Shown piece after piece: positions 28,657-39,188 of a DNA stretch of 64,000 bases. The position numbers were made by a program, and so were the translations under genes. The DNA is from Methylocystis sp. SC2 (GTDB taxonomy: Bacteria > Pseudomonadota > Alphaproteobacteria > Rhizobiales > Beijerinckiaceae): assembly GCF_000304315.1 (NCBI RefSeq), contig NC_018485.1, positions 1,954,501 through 2,018,500 on the forward strand, read 5' to 3'. The first letter of the stretch is position 1, and the number at the start of each line of letters is the position of its first letter. A model generated the notes under the pieces. That model saw only the letters and a list, made by a program, of their open reading frames with translations, had not been told where the DNA came from and made no database searches.

Positions 28657-30492
28657 ATGCGGATACTTGGGATCTCCGCCTTCTACCACGACAGCGCAGC
28701 CGCCGTGGTGGAGGATGGCGAAATTATCGCCGCCGCTCAGGAAGAGCGATTCTCGCGTAAAAAGCACGACTCGCGCTTTCCGCGTCACGCGATCGACTAT
28801 TGTCTTGAGGCCGCCGGCGCGACGCCTCAGGACATAGATTTCGTCGCCTTCTACGACAAGCCGTTCATCAAATTCGAGCGGCTGCTGGAAACCTATATCG
28901 CCTTTGCGCCGCGCGGATTTCAGTCGTTCAAAATGTCGCTGCCGCTCTGGCTGCGCGAAAAGCTCTTTCAAAAATCGCTGCTGTTGAAAGAGATGAAGGC
29001 CTATTCGGCGGATGTCGACTGGGCGAAAAGGCTGTTGTTCGCCGAGCATCACTTCAGCCACGCCGCCAGCGCCTTCTACCCCTCGCCTTTCAAGGACGCG
29101 ATCGTTCTGACGATGGATGGGGTCGGCGAGTGGGCGACGACGTCGGTCGCTTTCGGCAGTGACAATCAGCTGACCATGCAGCGCGAATTGCGCTTCCCGC
29201 ATTCGCTCGGCCTGCTCTATTCGGCCTTCACCTATTATGCCGGGTTCAAGGTAAACTCTGGCGAATACAAGCTGATGGGCCTTGCCCCTTATGGCGAGCC
29301 GAAATACGCCGAGTTGATCCTGGACAATTTGATCGACCTGAAGCCGGACGGCACCTTTCGGCTCGATCAGTCATATTTCGACTATTGCACCGGCTTGCGG
29401 ATGACCAACGGCAAGTTCGACGAACTGTTCGGCGGCCCGGCGCGCAAGCCGGAGGAACTCCTGACGCAGCGGCACATGGACATCGCCGCCTCGATACAGG
29501 CGGTCACCGAGGAGATCGTCCTTCGGCTCACCCGCGCGCTCGCCAAGGAGACCGGCGCGCGCAATCTTTGTCTCGCCGGCGGCGTCGCGCTGAATTGCGT
29601 CGCCAATGGAAAGCTGCTGCGCGACGGCAGCTTTGACCAGATTTGGATTCAGCCGGCGGCGGGCGACGCTGGCGGCGCGCTCGGCGCAGCGCTCGCCGGC
29701 TACTATCACCACAAGAAAAATTCCCGAAGCCTCAACGGCGGCGGCGACGCCATGCGCGGCTCCTATCTCGGTCCTTCCTTCCCGCAAGCCGAGATCGAGC
29801 GTCGGCTGCAAGCCGTCGGCGCCAGATTCCAGCCGATCCCGGAAGGCGATCTTATCGAAGCGGCGGCGCGGGACCTCGCCGACGAGAAAGCGGTCGGTTG
29901 GTTTCAGGGCCGAATGGAATTCGGGCCGCGCGCGCTTGGCGGACGGTCGATCCTGGGCGATCCGCGTTCCGCCACGATGCAGAAAACGCTCAATCTCAAA
30001 ATCAAATATCGCGAGTCGTTTCGGCCCTTCGCGCCGTCGGTGTTGCGCGAGGATGTCGCCGACTGGTTCGAACTCGAAGGCGACTCCCCTTACATGCTGC
30101 TCGTCGCCGATGTCGCCGAAAAGCATCGTCACCCAATGACGGCGGAGCAGCAGGCGCTGTTTGGCATCGACAAGCTCAATGTTCCGCGCAGCTCCATTCC
30201 GGCCGTGACCCACGTCGACTATTCCGCGCGGATTCAGACCGTGCACCAGGAGACGAATCCGCGCTATCACGCGCTGCTTTCGGCATTCAAGCGCATGACC
30301 GCCTGTCCCGTTCTCGTCAATACGAGTTTCAATGTGCGCGGCGAACCCATCGTCTGCACCCCGGAGGACGCCTTCGGCTGCTTCATGGGCACGGAGATGG
30401 ACACGCTGGTCATTGGCGATTGCTATTTGCGCAAAGACGATCAGGACGCATCGCTCAAGCACGATTATAAAGAGAAGTTCGAACTGGACTGA
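28657..30492 (+). CDS. NodU/CmcH-family carbamoyltransferase
   Basis: 611 residues, typical for the family. The N-terminal actin-like domain starts MRILGISAFYHDSAAAVVED and includes QEERFSRKKHDSRFP, EHHFSHAASAFYPSPF (metal-binding HHxxHA) and LTMDGVGEWATT. The C-terminal domain shows FQGRMEFGPRALGGRSIL and RPFAPSVL. These enzymes use carbamoyl phosphate to make carbamoyl-AMP and transfer the carbamoyl group to a hydroxyl. The small-protein neighbours define the widespread SxtJ/DUF5989-associated form; the acceptor is unknown. Confidence 0.93.
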   Translation: MRILGISAFYHDSAAAVVEDGEIIAAAQEERFSRKKHDSRFPRHAIDYCLEAAGATPQDIDFVAFYDKPFIKFERLLETYIAFAPRGFQSFKMSLPLWLREKLFQKSLLLKEMKAYSADVDWAKRLLFAEHHFSHAASAFYPSPFKDAIVLTMDGVGEWATTSVAFGSDNQLTMQRELRFPHSLGLLYSAFTYYAGFKVNSGEYKLMGLAPYGEPKYAELILDNLIDLKPDGTFRLDQSYFDYCTGLRMTNGKFDELFGGPARKPEELLTQRHMDIAASIQAVTEEIVLRLTRALAKETGARNLCLAGGVALNCVANGKLLRDGSFDQIWIQPAAGDAGGALGAALAGYYHHKKNSRSLNGGGDAMRGSYLGPSFPQAEIERRLQAVGARFQPIPEGDLIEAAARDLADEKAVGWFQGRMEFGPRALGGRSILGDPRSATMQKTLNLKIKYRESFRPFAPSVLREDVADWFELEGDSPYMLLVADVAEKHRHPMTAEQQALFGIDKLNVPRSSIPAVTHVDYSARIQTVHQETNPRYHALLSAFKRMTACPVLVNTSFNVRGEPIVCTPEDAFGCFMGTEMDTLVIGDCYLRKDDQDASLKHDYKEKFELD

Positions 30493-32902: not shown

Positions 32903-33670
32903 ATGCCTCGGTTTGCGGCTTTCCGAGACGATTCCGCCACTGGCCTGTCGGCGCGGAGCGCATTTATGCCTGCGTCGGCGAATCCACCGCGCAACGCGCG
33001 CATCTTGATCGTCAGCGACATGCGGCTGTTCAGCGAGGCGCTTGGCTTGCGTCTCGGGCAGCATCAGGGAATGTCCGTTGTCGCGGTCGTCGAGTGCGAC
33101 GCCGCGTTGTCGGTAGCGGCGGATCTGGAGCCGGATATTGCTCTGCTCGACGTCGGCGAGTTGGAAGGCCTCGCGATCGCGCAAGGTCTCGCCGCGCAGC
33201 ATCCAGATTTGCAAATCGTCGCCATCGGCGCGCCGGCGTCCGCCGGCGCGGCGTTGGCGGCTGCTTGCCCAACAATCGTCGGCGTCATTCCGCGCGAAGG
33301 TTCGATTGACGACGTCGTCGACCTGCTCGAGCGCTTGACCGCAGCGTCTGCGGTTCATGCTGCGGAGGAGCGGCGGCCGATCGGCAAGGAGGCGCGCGCG
33401 TCCGCCGCAGACGCAAAGGACGCGCTTACGGCGCGTGAGCAGGAAATACTGCAACTGATTGAGCGCGGGCTTTCGAACAAGGAGATCGCCCGTCGGCTCC
33501 GCATCGAACTCGGCACGGTGAAGAATCACGTGCACAATGTTCTGCAGAAGCTGCAAGTGCGCGGCCGCGGCGAAGCGGCGCACTCGATGCGAAAGCGCTC
33601 CGCCGCAGATCACGGAGAAGCGCTTGATTCGCCGATCGATCGAGGACCGCTCGCGCTTGCGGCTAAATAA
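32903..33670 (+). CDS. NarL/FixJ-type response regulator with a degenerate receiver
   Basis: 255 residues. A receiver-like domain (about 32-150) starts RILIVSDMRLFSEALGLRLG and has the acceptor-like Asp in DIALLDVGELEG. The usual first acidic residue is Ser, and the conserved Lys is Arg (GVIPREGS), so phosphotransfer may be altered or absent. The LuxR HTH (about 175-235) is canonical: LTAREQEILQLIERGLSNKE, GTVKNHVHNVLQKLQV. No sensor kinase is adjacent; it converges on the subtilase gene, whose stop overlaps its last codons. Target genes may include that neighbouring locus, but nothing proves it. Confidence 0.88.
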   Translation: MPRFAAFRDDSATGLSARSAFMPASANPPRNARILIVSDMRLFSEALGLRLGQHQGMSVVAVVECDAALSVAADLEPDIALLDVGELEGLAIAQGLAAQHPDLQIVAIGAPASAGAALAAACPTIVGVIPREGSIDDVVDLLERLTAASAVHAAEERRPIGKEARASAADAKDALTAREQEILQLIERGLSNKEIARRLRIELGTVKNHVHNVLQKLQVRGRGEAAHSMRKRSAADHGEALDSPIDRGPLALAAK

Positions 33671-35471
33671 CGCCCGCGGCCCGCAGCTGCATCATGCGCT
33701 GGATGATCGCCGGATTGATCCTTTGCATCATCACAGGATCGATCGCCCAAGGCGCCGGCGCGCTCATCGGAGCAAATCCGCCGATCATCGCTCCCGCGGG
33801 AGCCAGTCCCGCGCCGGCCGGCGCCGCTGCGCCCATCGGCTGAGTTGCGGCCAGACTGGGCACGCGCTCAAAATCCGGCGCGCCGACGCCTTCACGCGTA
33901 GAGTCGCCGAGATAGCGGACGCCGGACGAGGCCAACAGCGAGAAGAGCTGCGCAACGCGCTGCTCGTTGCGCGCCGACCGCGCGCCAGCCAAAAGCGGAT
34001 GATGCGCGAGAAGCAGCGCCGCCATGCCGGTGACGTGCGGCGTCGCCATCGAGGTGCCGTCCCAGGCCGCATAACCGCCGCCGGGCACGGTGGAGACGAT
34101 CGCCACGCCAGGCGCCGCGACAGTGATCTGCGGCCCAAAGCACGTAAACTTCGGCGAGAACATCGTCCCCGCGACAAGTTGCGGAACGACCGTCTGCGCG
34201 TGATAGCTGTCGGAAGGAAACTCGTCGAGTTTGCCCATCGCGGCGACCGTCAGCACCGTTGGCAGCATGCCGGGAAACTGCACCGGTCCGCTGGAGTTTC
34301 CGGCGGCGACGATGCAGGCGACGCCGCTCTGGCGCGCTTCGGCGATTTTCTGCGCAACGAGTTCGGAAGGATCGCCGCTGCCCAGGCTCATATTGACGAC
34401 GTCGAGCTGCCGTTCGATGCATTCGTCGAGCGCGTCGATGAGATCGCTGAAACGTCCGCCGGGAAACACTTTCAACGCGTGAACTTCCGCCTTCGGCGCA
34501 AAGCCGCGAATGCCGGCGACGCCCTCGGAGGCGGCCGTAATGATGCCGGCGCAATGCGTGCCATGGCCGATCTGATCGTTCGACCAGCTCGCCTTGTCGC
34601 CGCCATTGGTGAGATCGGCGCCGCGCGTCACATGGCGCAATTGCGGGTGCGCGCTGTCGCAGCCGGAATCGATGATGCCGATCTTGACGCCGGCGCCGGT
34701 GAATGAAGGATCAAGCCGGTCGAGCTTCATCAGGCGCTGACCCCAGCCGACCATCCCGCTTTGGGGGAAACCGTTGAAGCGTTCCGTCAGCGGGCGCAAC
34801 TGCACAGTGTTCACCGCGCCGGCCTGAAGCGCTGGCGCGCGGAGCATACGATCCCAGTGATCGGCGGCGGGTTTGACGTAAATCGCCTGGATGGTCTCGA
34901 TCGGGCCGCCGAAAACCGTCACGACGACTTCGCCGCGCTCATTGGTGACGCCTTGGCCGGGAAAGCCCTGACCATAGACATAGACGGTGGCCTTGGGCAG
35001 CGGCTTGCCGCCGGCGCCAACGACGCGCAGCAGCACGTCCACTCCGACGCCCGCCGCAATCGGCATGACTCCGTTGAAGTCGAAGGGTCGAAAATCGTCC
35101 GAGGCGCGAAGAAAGGCGTCGCGCTCCACGACGACGTTGGGCGGCGCTGACGCCTGCAGCGCTGCGCCGCGCGCAGGGTCCATCTCAGCGACGAGAATTT
35201 CCGGCGTCTGAGACGACGGTCCGCCGGCCGAAAAGGCGGTGAGCCCGCGCGGCTGAATCCGCCGCACGATCTTTACGTCGGGCAGCGCATTGGCGAGATC
35301 CATCGCAGAAGCGGGCGCGAATCCGGGGACGCGCCGCGAGGCGATCATAAAGCGCTCCGTCGGCGCAATCGCCATCGGCTCCACGCGCGTATCGGCGCCA
35401 TTGGGCGTCGGCGCCGCGGGACCGGAACTCTGACCATTCGGCGCAGGATTAGCAGTATCGGGACCAGCCAT
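33663..35471 (-). CDS. S8 (subtilisin-like) serine protease with propeptide-like and Ig-like domains
   Basis: 602 residues from ATG 35471 with AGGAG before it; the frame stays open upstream but overlaps the next gene. No signal peptide is evident. Residues about 38-125 form a propeptide/I9-like domain (RFMIASRR...EILVAEMDPARG...NVVVERDAFL). About 140-225 is a carboxypeptidase-regulatory-like beta domain (LPKATVYVYGQGFPG). The catalytic domain has Asp268 (IGIIDSGCD), His303 (GHGTHCAGI), oxyanion Asn392 (AAGNSSG) and Ser474 (DGTSMATPHV). The Ala/Pro/Met-rich tail ends INPAIIQRMMQLRAAGVI. It probably acts with the two upstream genes. Confidence 0.92.
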   Translation of the reverse strand: MAGPDTANPAPNGQSSGPAAPTPNGADTRVEPMAIAPTERFMIASRRVPGFAPASAMDLANALPDVKIVRRIQPRGLTAFSAGGPSSQTPEILVAEMDPARGAALQASAPPNVVVERDAFLRASDDFRPFDFNGVMPIAAGVGVDVLLRVVGAGGKPLPKATVYVYGQGFPGQGVTNERGEVVVTVFGGPIETIQAIYVKPAADHWDRMLRAPALQAGAVNTVQLRPLTERFNGFPQSGMVGWGQRLMKLDRLDPSFTGAGVKIGIIDSGCDSAHPQLRHVTRGADLTNGGDKASWSNDQIGHGTHCAGIITAASEGVAGIRGFAPKAEVHALKVFPGGRFSDLIDALDECIERQLDVVNMSLGSGDPSELVAQKIAEARQSGVACIVAAGNSSGPVQFPGMLPTVLTVAAMGKLDEFPSDSYHAQTVVPQLVAGTMFSPKFTCFGPQITVAAPGVAIVSTVPGGGYAAWDGTSMATPHVTGMAALLLAHHPLLAGARSARNEQRVAQLFSLLASSGVRYLGDSTREGVGAPDFERVPSLAATQPMGAAAPAGAGLAPAGAMIGGFAPMSAPAPWAIDPVMMQRINPAIIQRMMQLRAAGVI

Positions 35472-35533
35472 TTCGACTCTCCTAATAAATCGGGCCAGCC
35501 TGCGCATCGCGATGAAGCTTGCGGCGCCGGCGC

Positions 35534-35779
35534 TTAAAATGCTTTCAGCGGAGCGTTTGGTTCGATGATCAGGGTCGCGCCAAATTGTTCGCGCAATTGA
35601 CGTGCGCTCGCCGTCGGCAGAGCGACGACCAGCCTCGGTTGGCCGGCCTTGCCGGCGCGCTGAAGAATTGCGGCGCCGGGGACAGACCGCATCGCCTGTT
35701 CGAAAGCAGCTAAATCTCCTGCGCCCGCCGCATTCCGCGGCGCCACCAGAAATTGATCGATGCCGTTCGTTGCGCTCAT
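35534..35779 (-). CDS. Free-standing protease-propeptide-like protein
   Basis: 81 residues from ATG 35779. The sequence GIDQFLVAPRNAAGAGD, then FEQAMRSVPGAAILQRAG, then PRLVVALPTASARQLREQFG and LIIEPNAPLKAF follows the same order of strands and helices as residues 35-125 of the adjacent subtilase (RFMIASRR, ALPDVKIVRR, PEILVAEMDPARGAALQA, NVVVERDAFL). I infer a homologue of that propeptide, acting as an intermolecular chaperone or inhibitor of the protease. It lies 62 nt upstream of the protease on the same strand. The relation is read by eye. Confidence 0.65.
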   Translation of the reverse strand: MSATNGIDQFLVAPRNAAGAGDLAAFEQAMRSVPGAAILQRAGKAGQPRLVVALPTASARQLREQFGATLIIEPNAPLKAF

Positions 35780-35883
35780 GGTGTCGCGATCCTGATCTCT
35801 TGAGGGCTCCCGGGCCGATGAGTCGGCCCGGAAGCGGCAGCAGATCATCCTTCATGCGTCGCGTCGATTGCGCCGCTCAGACC

Positions 35884-36987
35884 TCAGCCGTACATCGGCG
35901 CCTGCATCTGCGGCGCGTAGTAGACGGGCTGCGGCGCGGCGTCGAACGGCAGGAAGCGCTGAGCGAGACCGCCCACCGTGTTGCCGATCGTCTGGCCGAG
36001 GCCGGCGTTGCCGAAGCGGCCGCCGATCCAGCCGCCGACGGGTCCGCCGATGGCGCCGAGCGCGTCGCCGACGATCCCCTGCGGGGCGAAGCCAGGGGCG
36101 GCCGTCTGCGGGACGTAATAGATCCCGGCGTAGCCCTGCGGGCCGGCGTCGAACGGCAGGAACCGCTGGGCGAGACCGCCCACCGTGTTGCCGATCGTCT
36201 GGCCGAGGCCGGCGTTGCCGAAGCGGCCGCCGATCCAGCCGCCGACGGGCCCGCCGATCGCGCCGAGCGCGTCGCCGACGATCCCCTGCGGGGCGAATCC
36301 AGGCGCGGCCGACTGCGGGACGTAATAGGTCCCGGCGTAGCCCTGCGGGCCGGCGTCGAACGGCAGGAACCGCTGAGCGAGACCGCCCACCGTATTGCCG
36401 ATCGTCTGGCCGAGGCCGGCGTTGCCGAAGCGACCGCCAATCCAGCCGCCGACGGGTCCGCCGATGGCGCCGAGCGCGTCGCCGACGATTCCCTGCGGGG
36501 CGAATCCAGGCGCCGCCGTCTGCGGGACGTAATAGGTTCCGGCGTAGCCCTGCGGGCCGGCGTCGAACGGCAGGAAGCGCTGAGCGAGACCGCCCACCGC
36601 GCCGCCGATCGTCTGGCCGAGACCGGCGTTGCCGAAGCGGCCGCCGATGAAGCCGCCGAGCGGCGCCCCGAGCGCGCCGAGCGCGTCGCCGACGATCCCC
36701 TGCGGGGCGAATCCAGGCGCCGCCGTCTGCGGGACGTAATAGGTCCCGGCGTACGCCTGCGGACCGGCGTCGAACGGCAGCAAGCCGCCGAGCACGCCTC
36801 CCGCGACGCTGCCGATCTGCCGACCGAGATTCTGATTGCCCAGGGCGCGGCCGAGCGCGCCGCCGCCCAATCCGCCCAGCGCGCTGCCGAGCGCGCCGCC
36901 GATGAAGCCTTGCGGCGCAAACATCTGATCGGCGACCATGCCCATCGGCGCGACCGACGGCGTTGCTCCGTTGTAAGCCATTTGCAT
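35884..36987 (-). CDS. Glycine-zipper tandem-repeat protein
   Basis: 367 residues from ATG 36987, with GGGAGG upstream. After an N-terminal variant unit (GALGSALGGLGGGALGRALG) come near-identical 69-residue units: FLPFDAGPQGYAGTYYVPQ, TAAPGFAPQGIVGDALGAIG, GPVGGWIGGRFGNAGLGQTI, GNTVGGLAQR. The chain ends with a truncated unit QAPMYG. Glycine-zipper stretches favour membrane insertion or packed helices, while FAPQG and YYVPQ segments look like linkers or processing sites. No signal peptide is apparent. It is the first gene of a set with a propeptide-like protein and a subtilase, suggesting a protease-processed or self-assembling product. Function unknown. Confidence 0.8.
   Translation of the reverse strand: MQMAYNGATPSVAPMGMVADQMFAPQGFIGGALGSALGGLGGGALGRALGNQNLGRQIGSVAGGVLGGLLPFDAGPQAYAGTYYVPQTAAPGFAPQGIVGDALGALGAPLGGFIGGRFGNAGLGQTIGGAVGGLAQRFLPFDAGPQGYAGTYYVPQTAAPGFAPQGIVGDALGAIGGPVGGWIGGRFGNAGLGQTIGNTVGGLAQRFLPFDAGPQGYAGTYYVPQSAAPGFAPQGIVGDALGAIGGPVGGWIGGRFGNAGLGQTIGNTVGGLAQRFLPFDAGPQGYAGIYYVPQTAAPGFAPQGIVGDALGAIGGPVGGWIGGRFGNAGLGQTIGNTVGGLAQRFLPFDAAPQPVYYAPQMQAPMYG
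35941..36975. repeat. Five-unit tandem repeat with exact 207-bp period
   Basis: The landmark GTCGAACGGCAGGAA or its GTCGAACGGCAG variant recurs at 35941, 36148, 36355, 36562 and 36769, each exactly 207 bp apart. The central copies are nearly identical at the DNA level; the copy nearest the start codon has diverged most. Identity at DNA level implies recent duplication or gene conversion. Confidence 0.9.
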
Positions 36988-37392
36988 ATCTGATCCTCCC
37001 AAAGGGTCAAAGGAATCTGCGCCGCTCAAACGCGTGTCGCATCTGCTCATCGACGCAGAACAAACGATAAGTCCTTTGGGAAGCCCGATATATGTATCGT
37101 TGGGCACAGTTGAGGATACATGCGCAGCGAACGCCTAGCGCCCAACGACGACGCGCGGCGTCATCGAACAAGCGCCCCGATTTTGCAGATTGCGGCTCGC
37201 GACATGCGGGCCGGCGGCGTGCGCTCGAGACGCGCTGCTTGGCGTGAATTCTTCCGATCCCAACGCATCGCCCTGCGCTGCTGGGCGTCACCGCTTTTAT
37301 GGCGTCCTCGCATCAACGCGCGGGCCGTCATCCGCGGCGCCGCTGGATGGATGAACGCGGAGGTTCGCCGGAACGATAGCTGCGGGGGTCGG
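36988..37392. other. Leader and spacer between the repeat-protein gene and phyR
   Basis: 405 bp. It contains the inverted repeat described at 36995-37081. Beyond that I see no gene, tRNA or clear terminator; open frames here are short and lack ribosome sites. Confidence 0.5.
36995..37081 (-). promoter_or_regulatory. Inverted repeat masking the ribosome site of the repeat-protein gene
   Basis: In the transcript, TCCCAAAGG (from 37081 to 37073) can pair perfectly with CCTTTGGGA (from 37005 to 36997). The 3' arm overlaps the Shine-Dalgarno GGGAGG that precedes ATG 36987. The loop is about 67 nt. This arrangement suggests translational gating of the repeat protein. Confidence 0.45.
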
Positions 37393-38181
37393 CTAAGCCG
37401 CGCGAGACGCCTTGCGCTCGAAGAACAGCGCCTGGCTGATCGTCGCCTTGACCGTATCGACCTTGTAGGGCTTGCTGATGAGAAACGCCGGCTCGGGCCG
37501 CTCGCCGGTCAGCAGTCGTTCGGGAAATGCAGTAATGAAAATCACCGGGGCGTCGAAACTTTCGAGCATTTCATTGACGGCGTTCAGACCGGAACTGCCG
37601 TCGGCCAGCTGAATGTCGGCGAGAATCAGCCCCGGCCGCTTGCGCGCCGCGAGATCCACCGCCTCCTGATGGGTGCGGGCGACGCCAATGATACGGTGGC
37701 CCAGATCGCGCGCGATGAACTCGATGTCCTGCGCGATGAGCGATTCATCCTCGATGATGAGCACGTCCGTCGCGACGCGTTCGGCGATTTCCCGGCCGGC
37801 CTCCGTCACGAGCGCTTCGACCTCTTCTTCGGTCGCGCCCAATATGGCGGCGGCGTCAGCTACCGAAAACCCTTCGACCGTGCGCAGCAAAAAAGCCTGT
37901 CGCGATCGCGGCGTCAGTAAGCTGATATTCCGCTGTGCCGCGGAGATCTCGTCATCGGGCGCAGCTTCGGTGTTCAGCCGAATCGACGACCACGACGTCA
38001 TGAAGAGGTGGTAAAGCCCGACCTTGGGCGACATGTTCGGTGGAAACGCATCCGGATCGACCACCAGCGCCTCGAGCGTGGCGACGACGTAAGCGTCGCC
38101 GCTCTTTTGCGAGCCGCAGAGCGCCCTCGCAAAGCGGCGGAGGTAAGGCAGATGCACCGCTATTTCCCGGGAGAGGTTCAT
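37393..38181 (-). CDS. phyR: General stress response anti-anti-sigma regulator PhyR
   Basis: 262 residues. The N-terminal half (1-135) is sigma-like: YLRRFARALCGSQKSGDAYV for region 2 and LLTPRSRQAFLLRTVEGFSV for region 4. The C-terminal receiver (about 138-258) has Glu144-Asp145, phospho-acceptor Asp189 in LILADIQLAD, and a Lys in FLISKPYK. When phosphorylated, PhyR binds NepR through its sigma-like half and frees EcfG. It diverges from nepR-ecfG across a spacer with a palindromic EcfG-type promoter. Confidence 0.97.
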   Translation of the reverse strand: MNLSREIAVHLPYLRRFARALCGSQKSGDAYVVATLEALVVDPDAFPPNMSPKVGLYHLFMTSWSSIRLNTEAAPDDEISAAQRNISLLTPRSRQAFLLRTVEGFSVADAAAILGATEEEVEALVTEAGREIAERVATDVLIIEDESLIAQDIEFIARDLGHRIIGVARTHQEAVDLAARKRPGLILADIQLADGSSGLNAVNEMLESFDAPVIFITAFPERLLTGERPEPAFLISKPYKVDTVKATISQALFFERKASRAA

Positions 38182-38261
38182 GTCTTCATCCTATGGCGCC
38201 GAATGCCCAAGTCAATTCACGCGCCGGTTGTTATGTCGCAATGTTCCTCGCTTGCAATTGC

Positions 38262-38288
38262 GGAACAATTAGTGTTCTTACGCGTTCC
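38262..38288 (+). promoter_or_regulatory. EcfG-type promoter, palindromic and possibly bidirectional
   Basis: On the plus strand GGAAC (38262-38266), a 16-bp spacer and CGTT (38283-38286) match the GSR sigma-factor promoter and point at nepR, 71 bp downstream. On the minus strand the same block reads GGAAC (38288-38284), 16 bp and TGTT (38267-38264), pointing at phyR. One element could thus drive both with positive feedback. Only the plus orientation matches perfectly. Confidence 0.75.
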
Positions 38289-38358
38289 AACAAGGGAGGT
38301 CGTCGCTCGGCCGCCCCGGGTAGAGGCGGCCAGTCTCGGGGCGAACTCGGGGTCGAGA

Positions 38359-38637
38359 ATGAGCCAACGCGAAAATCCTCACGACAACGATGGCCCCTCC
38401 CGCGACGCCGAACCAAACTTGAACAATAAGGCTGGAGGTCGGGAGGAGCCGGATGCTGACGGCTGCCAGGATGCGGACGGCTGCCAAGCGGACGGCGCCG
38501 CGCTAGACCCAAAGGTTCAAGCTCAGCTCGGGCGCGTTTTTCGCGCCTATTGCGACGATCTGATCCACCAACCCATCCCGGATAAGTTCACTGTGCTGCT
38601 GGCCAAGCTGGAAGCCAAACAGCGCGAAAAGAAATGA
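38359..38637 (+). CDS. nepR: Anti-sigma factor NepR
   Basis: 92 residues from ATG 38359. The acidic N-terminal half (with a duplicated DADGCQ) is followed by the conserved two-helix core LDPKVQAQLGRVFRAYCDDL and IHQPIPDKFTVLLAKLEAK. NepR binds EcfG and is sequestered by phosphorylated PhyR. The end overlaps the ecfG start by four bases (ATGA), giving fixed stoichiometry. Confidence 0.93.
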   Translation: MSQRENPHDNDGPSRDAEPNLNNKAGGREEPDADGCQDADGCQADGAALDPKVQAQLGRVFRAYCDDLIHQPIPDKFTVLLAKLEAKQREKK

Positions 38638-39188
38638 GCGACGAGGCCTTCGGAGATCAGATGGTGGCGCAGATGCCCTATCTGCGGGCCTTCGCAATTT
38701 CGCTGTGCGGATCTCATAGCCTCGCCGACGACCTGGTTCAGGACACTCTGGTCAAGGCCTGGTCGCACGCCGACTCCTTTCAGCCAAACACCAATCTGCG
38801 CGCCTGGCTCGTGACCATTCTGCGCAACACCTATTTTTCCAGCTATCGGAAACGCTCGCGCGAAGTGCAGGACAGCGACAATCTTCTGGCCCAGCAGATC
38901 CCTGTGAAAGGCGGTCAGGAGTCGGCCCTCACGCTTACGGACGTTCAGGCGGCTCTGGATAAACTCGCCCCCGAACACAAGGAGATTCTGTTGCTGATCG
39001 GGATCACCGAACTCTCCTACGATGAAGCGGCGGAGATTTGCGGCGTCGCCATCGGCACGGTCAAAAGCCGGTTGAACCGTGCGCGCGCCAAGCTTGCCGA
39101 GCATCTGGGCCTGCTCACGCCAAGCGACATTGACACCGATCCCACTGTATCGGATCTCGCAGCGCGCCGACCCTCCCGCGCGGTTTGA
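38634..39188 (+). CDS. ecfG: ECF sigma factor EcfG (general stress response)
   Basis: 184 residues with region 2 (QMPYLRAFAISLCGSHSLAD, DLVQDTLVKAWSHAD, LRAWLVTILRNTYF) and region 4 (LAPEHKEILLLIGITELSYD, EAAEICGVAIGTVKSRLNRA). This is the ECF15/EcfG group by context and sequence. It directs RNA polymerase to GGAAC-N16-17-CGTT promoters, one of which precedes its own operon. Confidence 0.96.
   Translation: MSDEAFGDQMVAQMPYLRAFAISLCGSHSLADDLVQDTLVKAWSHADSFQPNTNLRAWLVTILRNTYFSSYRKRSREVQDSDNLLAQQIPVKGGQESALTLTDVQAALDKLAPEHKEILLLIGITELSYDEAAEICGVAIGTVKSRLNRARAKLAEHLGLLTPSDIDTDPTVSDLAARRPSRAV

Follow-up and report, generated by a model that had tools for sequence, protein, structure and literature searches.

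The present analysis concerns three adjoining genes on the minus strand of a 64,000-nucleotide stretch of Methylocystis sp. SC2 DNA (NC_018485.1, positions 1,954,501 to 2,018,500, from a genome of a single 3.77 Mb contig). This stretch is called the window below, and positions refer to it. Transcription runs from a repeat protein gene through a small protein gene to a gene for an S8 (subtilisin-type) protease. The gene set is conserved, the small protein and the protease have a domain in common, the catalytic triad is intact, the units of the repeat protein close with a common motif, and an RNA hairpin follows the first gene. With somewhat less than even confidence, we read the locus as a dedicated precursor-processing cassette, in which the protease and an inhibitor acting in trans would release glycine-zipper peptides by cutting after the Phe at the end of each unit. 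Cleavage, inhibition, an excess of the first product and an action on membranes are thereby predicted from sequence. As originally predicted, the three leftward genes stand in one locus, and their coordinates were confirmed:

35884..36987, minus strand: repeat protein gene, 367 residues (short N-terminal stretch, five glycine-zipper units, Y/P/Q-rich tail)
35534..35779, minus strand: small protein gene, 81 residues, stand-alone relative of the I9-like N-terminal domain of the protease
33663..35471, minus strand: S8 (subtilisin-type) protease gene, 602 residues

A conserved three-gene locus

The protease orthologue was found in 12 of the 37 Methylocystis genomes in a survey of 61 genomes (the window's own, 36 others of the genus and 24 of the order), with an identity of 92-100%. 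In all 12 the small and repeat proteins adjoin it (tblastn), and the order repeat, small, protease is kept; one of these repeat genes is cut by a contig edge and one contains N. A genome-contig scan with the full protease query also gave close relatives with the locus that were mostly titled Methylocystis (9 loci, 92-96% identity). Across 385 genomes of the class, a Methylocystis-only profile of the protease N-terminus matched the own genome alone. Median dN/dS values (28 pairwise comparisons per gene among 8 of the 12 genomes) were 0.083 for the protease, 0.117 for the small protein and 0.159 for the first zipper unit; the minus-strand frames evolve as genes. Because these frames show dN/dS of 0.08-0.16, the long plus-strand open frame that overlies the repeat region is considered a by-product of composition.

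The original prediction depended in part on whether the genes would be found together elsewhere, and the trio was indeed recovered in two further lineages. A search of 398 genomes of the phylum, using a profile with Streptomyces rows added, matched three genomes besides the own one (G925, G949 and G888), all of which carry the full trio. G925 and G949 belong to one genus in the window's order, which we take to be Bradyrhizobium-like; G888 lies outside the class and, judging from its efp-like and earP-like neighbours, is presumably betaproteobacterium-like. Among 195 genomes of G925's genus, 34 matched the protease N-terminus, and these split into clade 1 (n=16, 67-100% identity), clade 1b (n=3, 36%) and clade 2 (n=15, 29-35%). 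Among 349 genomes of G888's order there were six matches at an expectation value (E) of 1e-60 or better, G888 included; one of the six, G1174, matched only from residue 136 on.

The trio was counted over 26 proteases, namely that of the window, 17 of clade 1 (including G949), three of clade 1b and five from G888's order; clade 2, Streptomyces and G1174 (locus L118, a weak match with the N-terminus uncovered) were left aside. A separate small-protein frame accompanies 25 of the 26, the exception being L113, which lies at a contig edge with its upstream part missing. In these 25 loci the frame starts at most 220 nucleotides past the end of the repeat gene, and the protease frame has its first ATG between -11 and +86 nucleotides from the small-protein stop. 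A repeat or zipper protein, whole or in part, adjoins the same 25 proteases (three of the genes hold N stretches and that of L109 is cut by a contig edge). The profile built from the Bradyrhizobium-like repeat protein matched 19 of the 195 genomes of G925's genus, exactly clades 1 and 1b, and none of the other 176, the 15 clade-2 genomes included; the draw was apparently the same as for the protease, and the counts are uncorrected for shared ancestry. The clade-1b matches were weak (E 2.9e-5 to 5.0e-4).

The 15 clade-2 loci (L119-L133) hold an intact-triad protease with a fused I9-like domain, beside a Q/G-rich protein with three helical RQL(S/T)(P/Q)QDV repeats (15/15). The gene order there is M48-like gene, Q/G-rich protein gene, strong hairpin (14/15), helical protein gene, S8 protease. 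The M48-like gene, which we take to be such from its HE-x-A-H motif, is present in 15/15, and the helical protein of about 152 residues ends SSIH or SSVH in 14/15 by one motif, the end of L121 being seen as well.

On plasmids, tblastn of the protease N-terminus against 72,556 records returned two Streptomyces plasmids (NZ_CP020041.1 and NZ_CP108854.1) whose proteins share this N-terminal architecture, and four different N-terminus queries returned only these two. They hold three copies (L059, L060 and L062), two on one plasmid, and a low-complexity, Q/G-rich protein adjoins every copy. Neither plasmid gave a match to the small-protein profile; small-protein and repeat-protein queries matched no plasmid, and a Streptomyces protein query matched no viral contig.

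The window protease is assigned to peptidase family S8 by a Peptidase_S8 (PF00082) match at residues 259-494 (E 3.6e-42), with the catalytic residues D268, H303 and S474 and the oxyanion Asn N392. Of 44 aligned proteases, 41 keep this D-H-N-S set; it is incomplete in two Streptomyces rows and in L100, whose Ser region is missing at a contig edge. An Ig-like domain had been predicted, and a weak CarboxypepD_reg match at residues 149-185 agrees with it (E 0.17, below the cut-off). The start of the protein looks disordered and its C-terminal tail is of low complexity. The structural model was poor (predicted local distance difference test, pLDDT, 49), and its PDB matches show only the S8 fold. 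In PADLOC, the protease gave a generic subtilase match (E 9.6e-27) and weak IetS matches. The domains are as follows:

35103..35360, minus strand: I9-like N-terminal domain, residues 38-123, strand-helix-strand-strand-helix-strand (low-confidence model and hidden Markov model, HMM)
34767..35084, minus strand: Ig-like beta domain, residues 130-235 (weak CarboxypepD_reg match, low-confidence model, weak Big_1 matches in relatives)
33990..34697, minus strand: Peptidase_S8 catalytic domain, residues 259-494

Small protein, repeat units and hairpin

The small protein had been said to resemble the propeptide domain of its own protease. A single family is supported through the HMMs of relatives, although the pairwise comparison within the window was not significant: the local score of 49 stayed under the highest value among 500 shuffles (53), and hhalign of the small protein with the protease N-terminus gave P 0.014 and a probability of 3%. 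The HMM of six small proteins matched the N-terminus of 15/15 clade-2 proteases (E 4.8e-6 to 0.02 in 6269 frames), which ranked directly after the small proteins themselves; in three of the 15 the match was confined to the C-terminal half of the domain. Conversely, an HMM of the clade-2 N-termini found the window small protein (9.6e-4) and the window protease (1.5e-3) in the same number of frames, together with many members of both sets, most at E between 0.001 and 1. By way of these relatives only, the small protein is classed as a homologue of the N-terminal domain of its cognate protease. The common fold that had also been proposed holds as far as the predicted order of elements goes: the small-protein model (pLDDT 79.6) shows strand-helix-strand-strand-helix-strand, and the protease model shows the same order at residues 39-117, though with low confidence. 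Among the 50 Foldseek matches shown for the small-protein model, the best template modelling (TM) score belonged to POIA1 (TM 0.65/0.69, E 0.011), a propeptide-like inhibitor whose structure was determined together with subtilisin, and none of the 50 reached E 0.001. Pfam I9 (PF05922) had no match in the whole own genome, the three window proteins included, and none in the L067 and L069 proteins.

Small proteins end in L-(K/S)-x-F in 24/25 loci (exception L115), and in the window's genus F is the last residue of all 12 copies. The clade-1 protein continues F-(D/G)-A-(D/G) in 12/17 loci, close to the F-S-A-G of its own units. In I9-type domains the C-terminus fills the substrate cleft of the protease, and the classic subtilisin substrate has the sequence Ala-Ala-Pro-Phe. 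Because of this background and the likeness to the unit ends, the C-terminus was read as a substrate mimic and the Phe as the cut site; the L-(K/S)-x-F end thus suggests substrate mimicry. The small protein is probably a trans inhibitor or chaperone. As a separate observation, locus L015 of the window's genus (genome G010) carries at 1129-2736 a different S8 protease of 449 residues followed by a separate 77-residue frame, which by eye resembles an I9-type domain in trans.

The repeat protein had been described as five 69-residue glycine-zipper repeats. Five units with a period of 69-70 residues were confirmed, but the first is a diverged variant, whose nearest likeness, by eye, is the single zipper found in Bradyrhizobium-like proteins. 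The FAPQG segments begin at residues 23, 93, 162, 231 and 300 (spacing 70, 69, 69, 69), and the DNA holds an array of 4.2 copies of 207 nucleotides with 93% matches. The units are:

36766..36921, minus strand: zipper unit 1, diverged variant, ends LPF-DA
36559..36711, minus strand: zipper unit 2, ends LPF-DA, cut predicted after F
36352..36504, minus strand: zipper unit 3, ends LPF-DA
36145..36297, minus strand: zipper unit 4, ends LPF-DA
35938..36090, minus strand: zipper unit 5, ends LPF-DA

Both FAPQG and YYVPQ had been suggested as cleavage segments. YYVPQ fails as a once-per-repeat site: it is present in four copies, not five, and many units in sister genomes follow one another without it, across a linker of 3 residues. 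FxPQG does occur once per unit, but the Phe of L-P-F at the unit end is a better-placed candidate for the cut. Because linkers in the Methylocystis genus vary from 3 to about 20 residues (42 in two genomes), YYVPQ is optional; FxPQG and LPF are obligatory. Strains of this genus hold 5 to 8 units in loci without gaps or edges, often near-identical inside one genome.

When units were located across loci by the PQG start alone (one unit containing N was dropped and one false unit in L059 excluded), P-F stood at the unit end in 108/110 units, 30-62 residues past the start, and the remaining two had P-L. The next residue depends on the lineage: clade 1 has S, the Methylocystis genus and clade 1b have D/E, and G predominates in G888's order; A usually comes after it. 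The other repeat type, the FWSVLKK units of Bradyrhizobium-like loci, closes with F-(S/D/E/N)-(A/T) in every closing motif caught by script. Zipper units have a median Gly fraction of 0.28 and a median best 19-residue hydropathy of 1.28 (72 Methylocystis-genus units), and the FWSVLKK unit reaches 0.43. The Pfam glycine-zipper families PF05433 and PF13488 had no match in the window repeat protein and left the L067 relative under their cut-offs (15.4 vs 24.2 and 14.7 vs 25 bits, respectively). The intact repeat proteins of L067-L069 and L096-L117 end in T-(M/L/I/V)-H or VTYH, those of the window's genus in APMYG, and the clade-2 helical protein in SS(I/V)H; a C-terminal signal common to the non-Methylocystis repeat proteins and the clade-2 helical protein is possible.

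Between the first two genes lies the following element:

35806..35835, minus strand: RNA hairpin of 13 base pairs, GC-rich, without T-run, between repeat gene and small gene

None of the 13 pairs is lost in any of the 12 genus sequences (156/156 cells), and three pairs have changed on both sides, a value reached in 5/500 shuffles (slid controls 0); the count of pair types is less telling (62/500 shuffles). Structure after the repeat gene was found at z < -2 in 23/25 loci, with sequences that differ between lineages, and the control of 60 nucleotides after the small gene gave 0/25, its stretch length differing from that of the hairpin test. Similarly, the 75 nucleotides after the first gene of clade 2 scored z < -2 in 14/15 loci, compared with 1/14 after the second gene, and one Streptomyces plasmid gave z -5.4 after the partner gene. 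In peptide operons, a hairpin downstream of the precursor gene suits a product that is required in surplus. We propose by analogy that the hairpin would keep the output of the first gene above that of the two downstream genes. Rfam gave no match in window 33000-39000, and a promoter and terminator scan found no promoter and 3 terminators vs 2.9 in shuffles.

A block at 37065-37125, some 60 nucleotides long and upstream of the repeat gene, is near-identical in five aligned genus loci, with less similar flanks, and is perhaps a promoter or operator. No EcfG-type box was seen upstream of the repeat gene in the 5/12 genus loci whose upstream stretch was extracted. The window cassette lies near a PhyR-like gene (37393-38181) and an EcfG-like sigma gene (38634-39188), an order kept in the sister loci that reach there; both are presumably general stress response genes. 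The PhyR-type gene is present in 8/12 genus loci, at distances from the cassette that vary by several kilobases, and the other four loci end at a contig edge. Downstream, a gene that we take to be of LuxR type follows in 12/12. In Bradyrhizobium-like clade 1, a presumed SARP/BTAD-like regulator gene stands directly upstream of the repeat gene in L096-L103, L105-L108 and L110. Further away in the window, a 611-residue frame at 28657-30492 presumably encodes a NodU/CmcH-type carbamoyltransferase.

Proposed mechanism and rival explanations

According to the processing model, the first gene would yield a surplus of a protein in which hydrophobic glycine-zipper units are strung together. The protease would be held by its own N-terminal I9-like domain and by the stand-alone copy acting in trans, whose C-terminal L-(K/S)-x-F would occupy the active site by imitating the cut site. 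Once active, the protease would cut the string after the Phe closing each unit (L-P-F|D/E/S/G) and free similar zipper peptides of about 54-69 residues, which may insert into or assemble on membranes.

A number of observations weigh against this model. The clade-2 partner has no L-P-F ends though its protease looks active, and in the Streptomyces copies the catalytic Ser is replaced by Ala/Thr and the oxyanion Asn by Asp; proteases of this type are partnered with low-complexity repeat proteins more widely than the L-P-F motif occurs. The residue after the unit-end Phe is not constant between lineages, and P-F may be conserved for structure rather than for cutting. The repeat gene of L098 (genome G1006) has an internal stop. 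Among 199 genomes of the family, Methylocystis-only profiles matched three, all of the genus, and none outside it. The hairpin is absent in L069 and L114, and the Bradyrhizobium-like hairpins might be dispersed repeat elements. As to the fold, POIA1 was only 14th in the Foldseek ranking, and the 50 VIA rows for the small protein hold no POIA1 or I9 chain, with an MCR-activation component first and many EF-G-type domains; the I9-like fold is a common, ferredoxin-like one, although the lack of an I9 chain in these rows does not exclude membership of the I9 family. A hydropathy scan, used here in place of a signal-peptide predictor, showed that all three window proteins lack a strongly hydrophobic stretch within residues 1-35, in agreement with the original prediction that a clear signal peptide is lacking, and no export signal was seen. 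Likewise, no transporter, immunity protein or leader was noticed at the loci, in the course of work that included no search aimed at these.

Mainly because the partnership extends beyond the L-P-F motif, our confidence in the processing model stays below even, and a scaffold explanation stays alive. Here the repeat protein would be a multivalent membrane or condensate scaffold that clusters the protease through its zipper and low-complexity parts, the small I9-like protein would hold the protease off until a signal arrives, and the substrates would be other proteins. We consider this unlikely, yet it is the strongest of the alternatives. It accounts for distant-branch partners that have low complexity and helical repeats in common rather than one cut site, and for Streptomyces copies that retain a Q/G-rich partner without the catalytic Ser; the lack of a hydrophobic N-terminus in every component and the SARP/BTAD-like regulator upstream in clade-1 loci, where read, also suit it. 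It is opposed by near-invariant unit ends that resemble the inhibitor C-terminus and by a conserved hairpin placed right after the first gene, as fits a product needed in excess.

Quality control is a clearly less probable explanation, in which the repeat protein is structural and inclusion-forming, and the protease and inhibitor only limit or clear it. The Gly- and PQ-rich low-complexity sequence, the varying unit number between strains and the missing hydrophobic N-terminus are all compatible with such a role, which leaves unexplained both a dedicated trans protein with the N-terminal domain of the protease and the fixed unit-end motif. Less probable again is a toxin version of the processing model, whose released units would attack neighbouring cells or the producer itself as pore formers or bacteriocin-like peptides. 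The units are Gly-rich and fairly hydrophobic, and those of FWSVLKK type look amphipathic by eye; however, the hydropathies of both types lie under the usual membrane-helix threshold of about 1.6, PADLOC gave only the generic subtilase and IetS matches, and the immunity protein, transporter and leader that a toxin calls for were neither noticed nor searched for. That the three genes are unrelated chance neighbours is highly improbable and already contradicted by an order conserved across two classes and by full co-occurrence in 195 genomes; only the failure to find a matching family in Pfam, NCBIfam or PADLOC speaks for it.

The processing model would, if true, add a self-contained protease, inhibitor and precursor cassette to the known peptide-maturation systems. 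Under this model each unit should be cut after the F of its closing L-P-F, and the inhibitor should end in a similar motif. The cassette was found through its conserved gene order; two of the three window proteins matched no family in Pfam, NCBIfam or PADLOC at the thresholds used. Meanwhile, active proteases, changed partners and dead proteases on Streptomyces plasmids form a natural series for seeing how such systems arise and change. More speculatively than the processing model itself, the locus could represent a new class of ribosomal products: multi-copy glycine-zipper or FWSVLKK-type peptides made from one precursor by a dedicated subtilase, with a stand-alone prodomain copy that restrains the protease by mimicking the cut site and a conserved intercistronic hairpin setting the ratio of precursor to enzyme. 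The cassette would then be spread over two or more classes of proteobacteria, and the copies on Streptomyces plasmids would be pseudoprotease derivatives of it.

Comparison with known systems

The gene set had been thought to match no described system. This stood for the databases searched, as the cassette is unnamed in Pfam, NCBIfam and PADLOC, and its novelty is to be read within that scope. The nearest parallel for the small protein is found in POIA1 and in yeast proteinase B inhibitor 2, the latter presumably a stand-alone propeptide-like subtilisin inhibitor: here too, the small protein is a separate relative of the prodomain-like region of a protease, and its model fold resembles POIA1. 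As in I9-type inhibitors, judging from known structures, its C-terminal residues would be placed to enter the active site; unlike them, it goes unmatched by Pfam I9 and is encoded beside both a protease and a repeat protein.

Several dedicated subtilases were also compared. The cyanobactin parallel drawn in the original prediction did not extend beyond a subtilase and repeats: PatA/PatG model TIGR03895 scored 41.8 vs a cut-off of 421.05 bits. As with PatA/PatG, a subtilase stands beside the gene for a repeat-bearing precursor candidate; cyanobactin precursors carry short core peptides, whereas the units here are of about 51 residues and more. QhpE is the S8 subtilase of quinohemoprotein amine dehydrogenase maturation and, similarly, serves one partner protein, but identity with it was rejected (NF049966, 75.4 vs 165 bits; the Qhp genes were not searched for). 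Type VII secretion mycosin (TIGR03921, 120.1 vs 278.75 bits) and IetS of the IetAS anti-phage system (NF042956, IteS/IetS, 19.3 vs 900 bits) were rejected as well. The likeness to IetAS is a weak similarity of the S8 domain (PADLOC IetS model, E 9.2e-10; the ATPase partner was not searched for).

The Cdz bacteriocin of Caulobacter likewise involves glycine-zipper proteins of an alphaproteobacterium. Cdz consists of two small glycine-zipper proteins exported by a type I system, whereas the present locus encodes one multi-unit protein together with a subtilase and an inhibitor-like protein. Set beside these systems, the cassette couples a dedicated subtilase to a precursor candidate and stands apart through a trans prodomain relative, multi-unit zipper partners and a conserved intercistronic hairpin.

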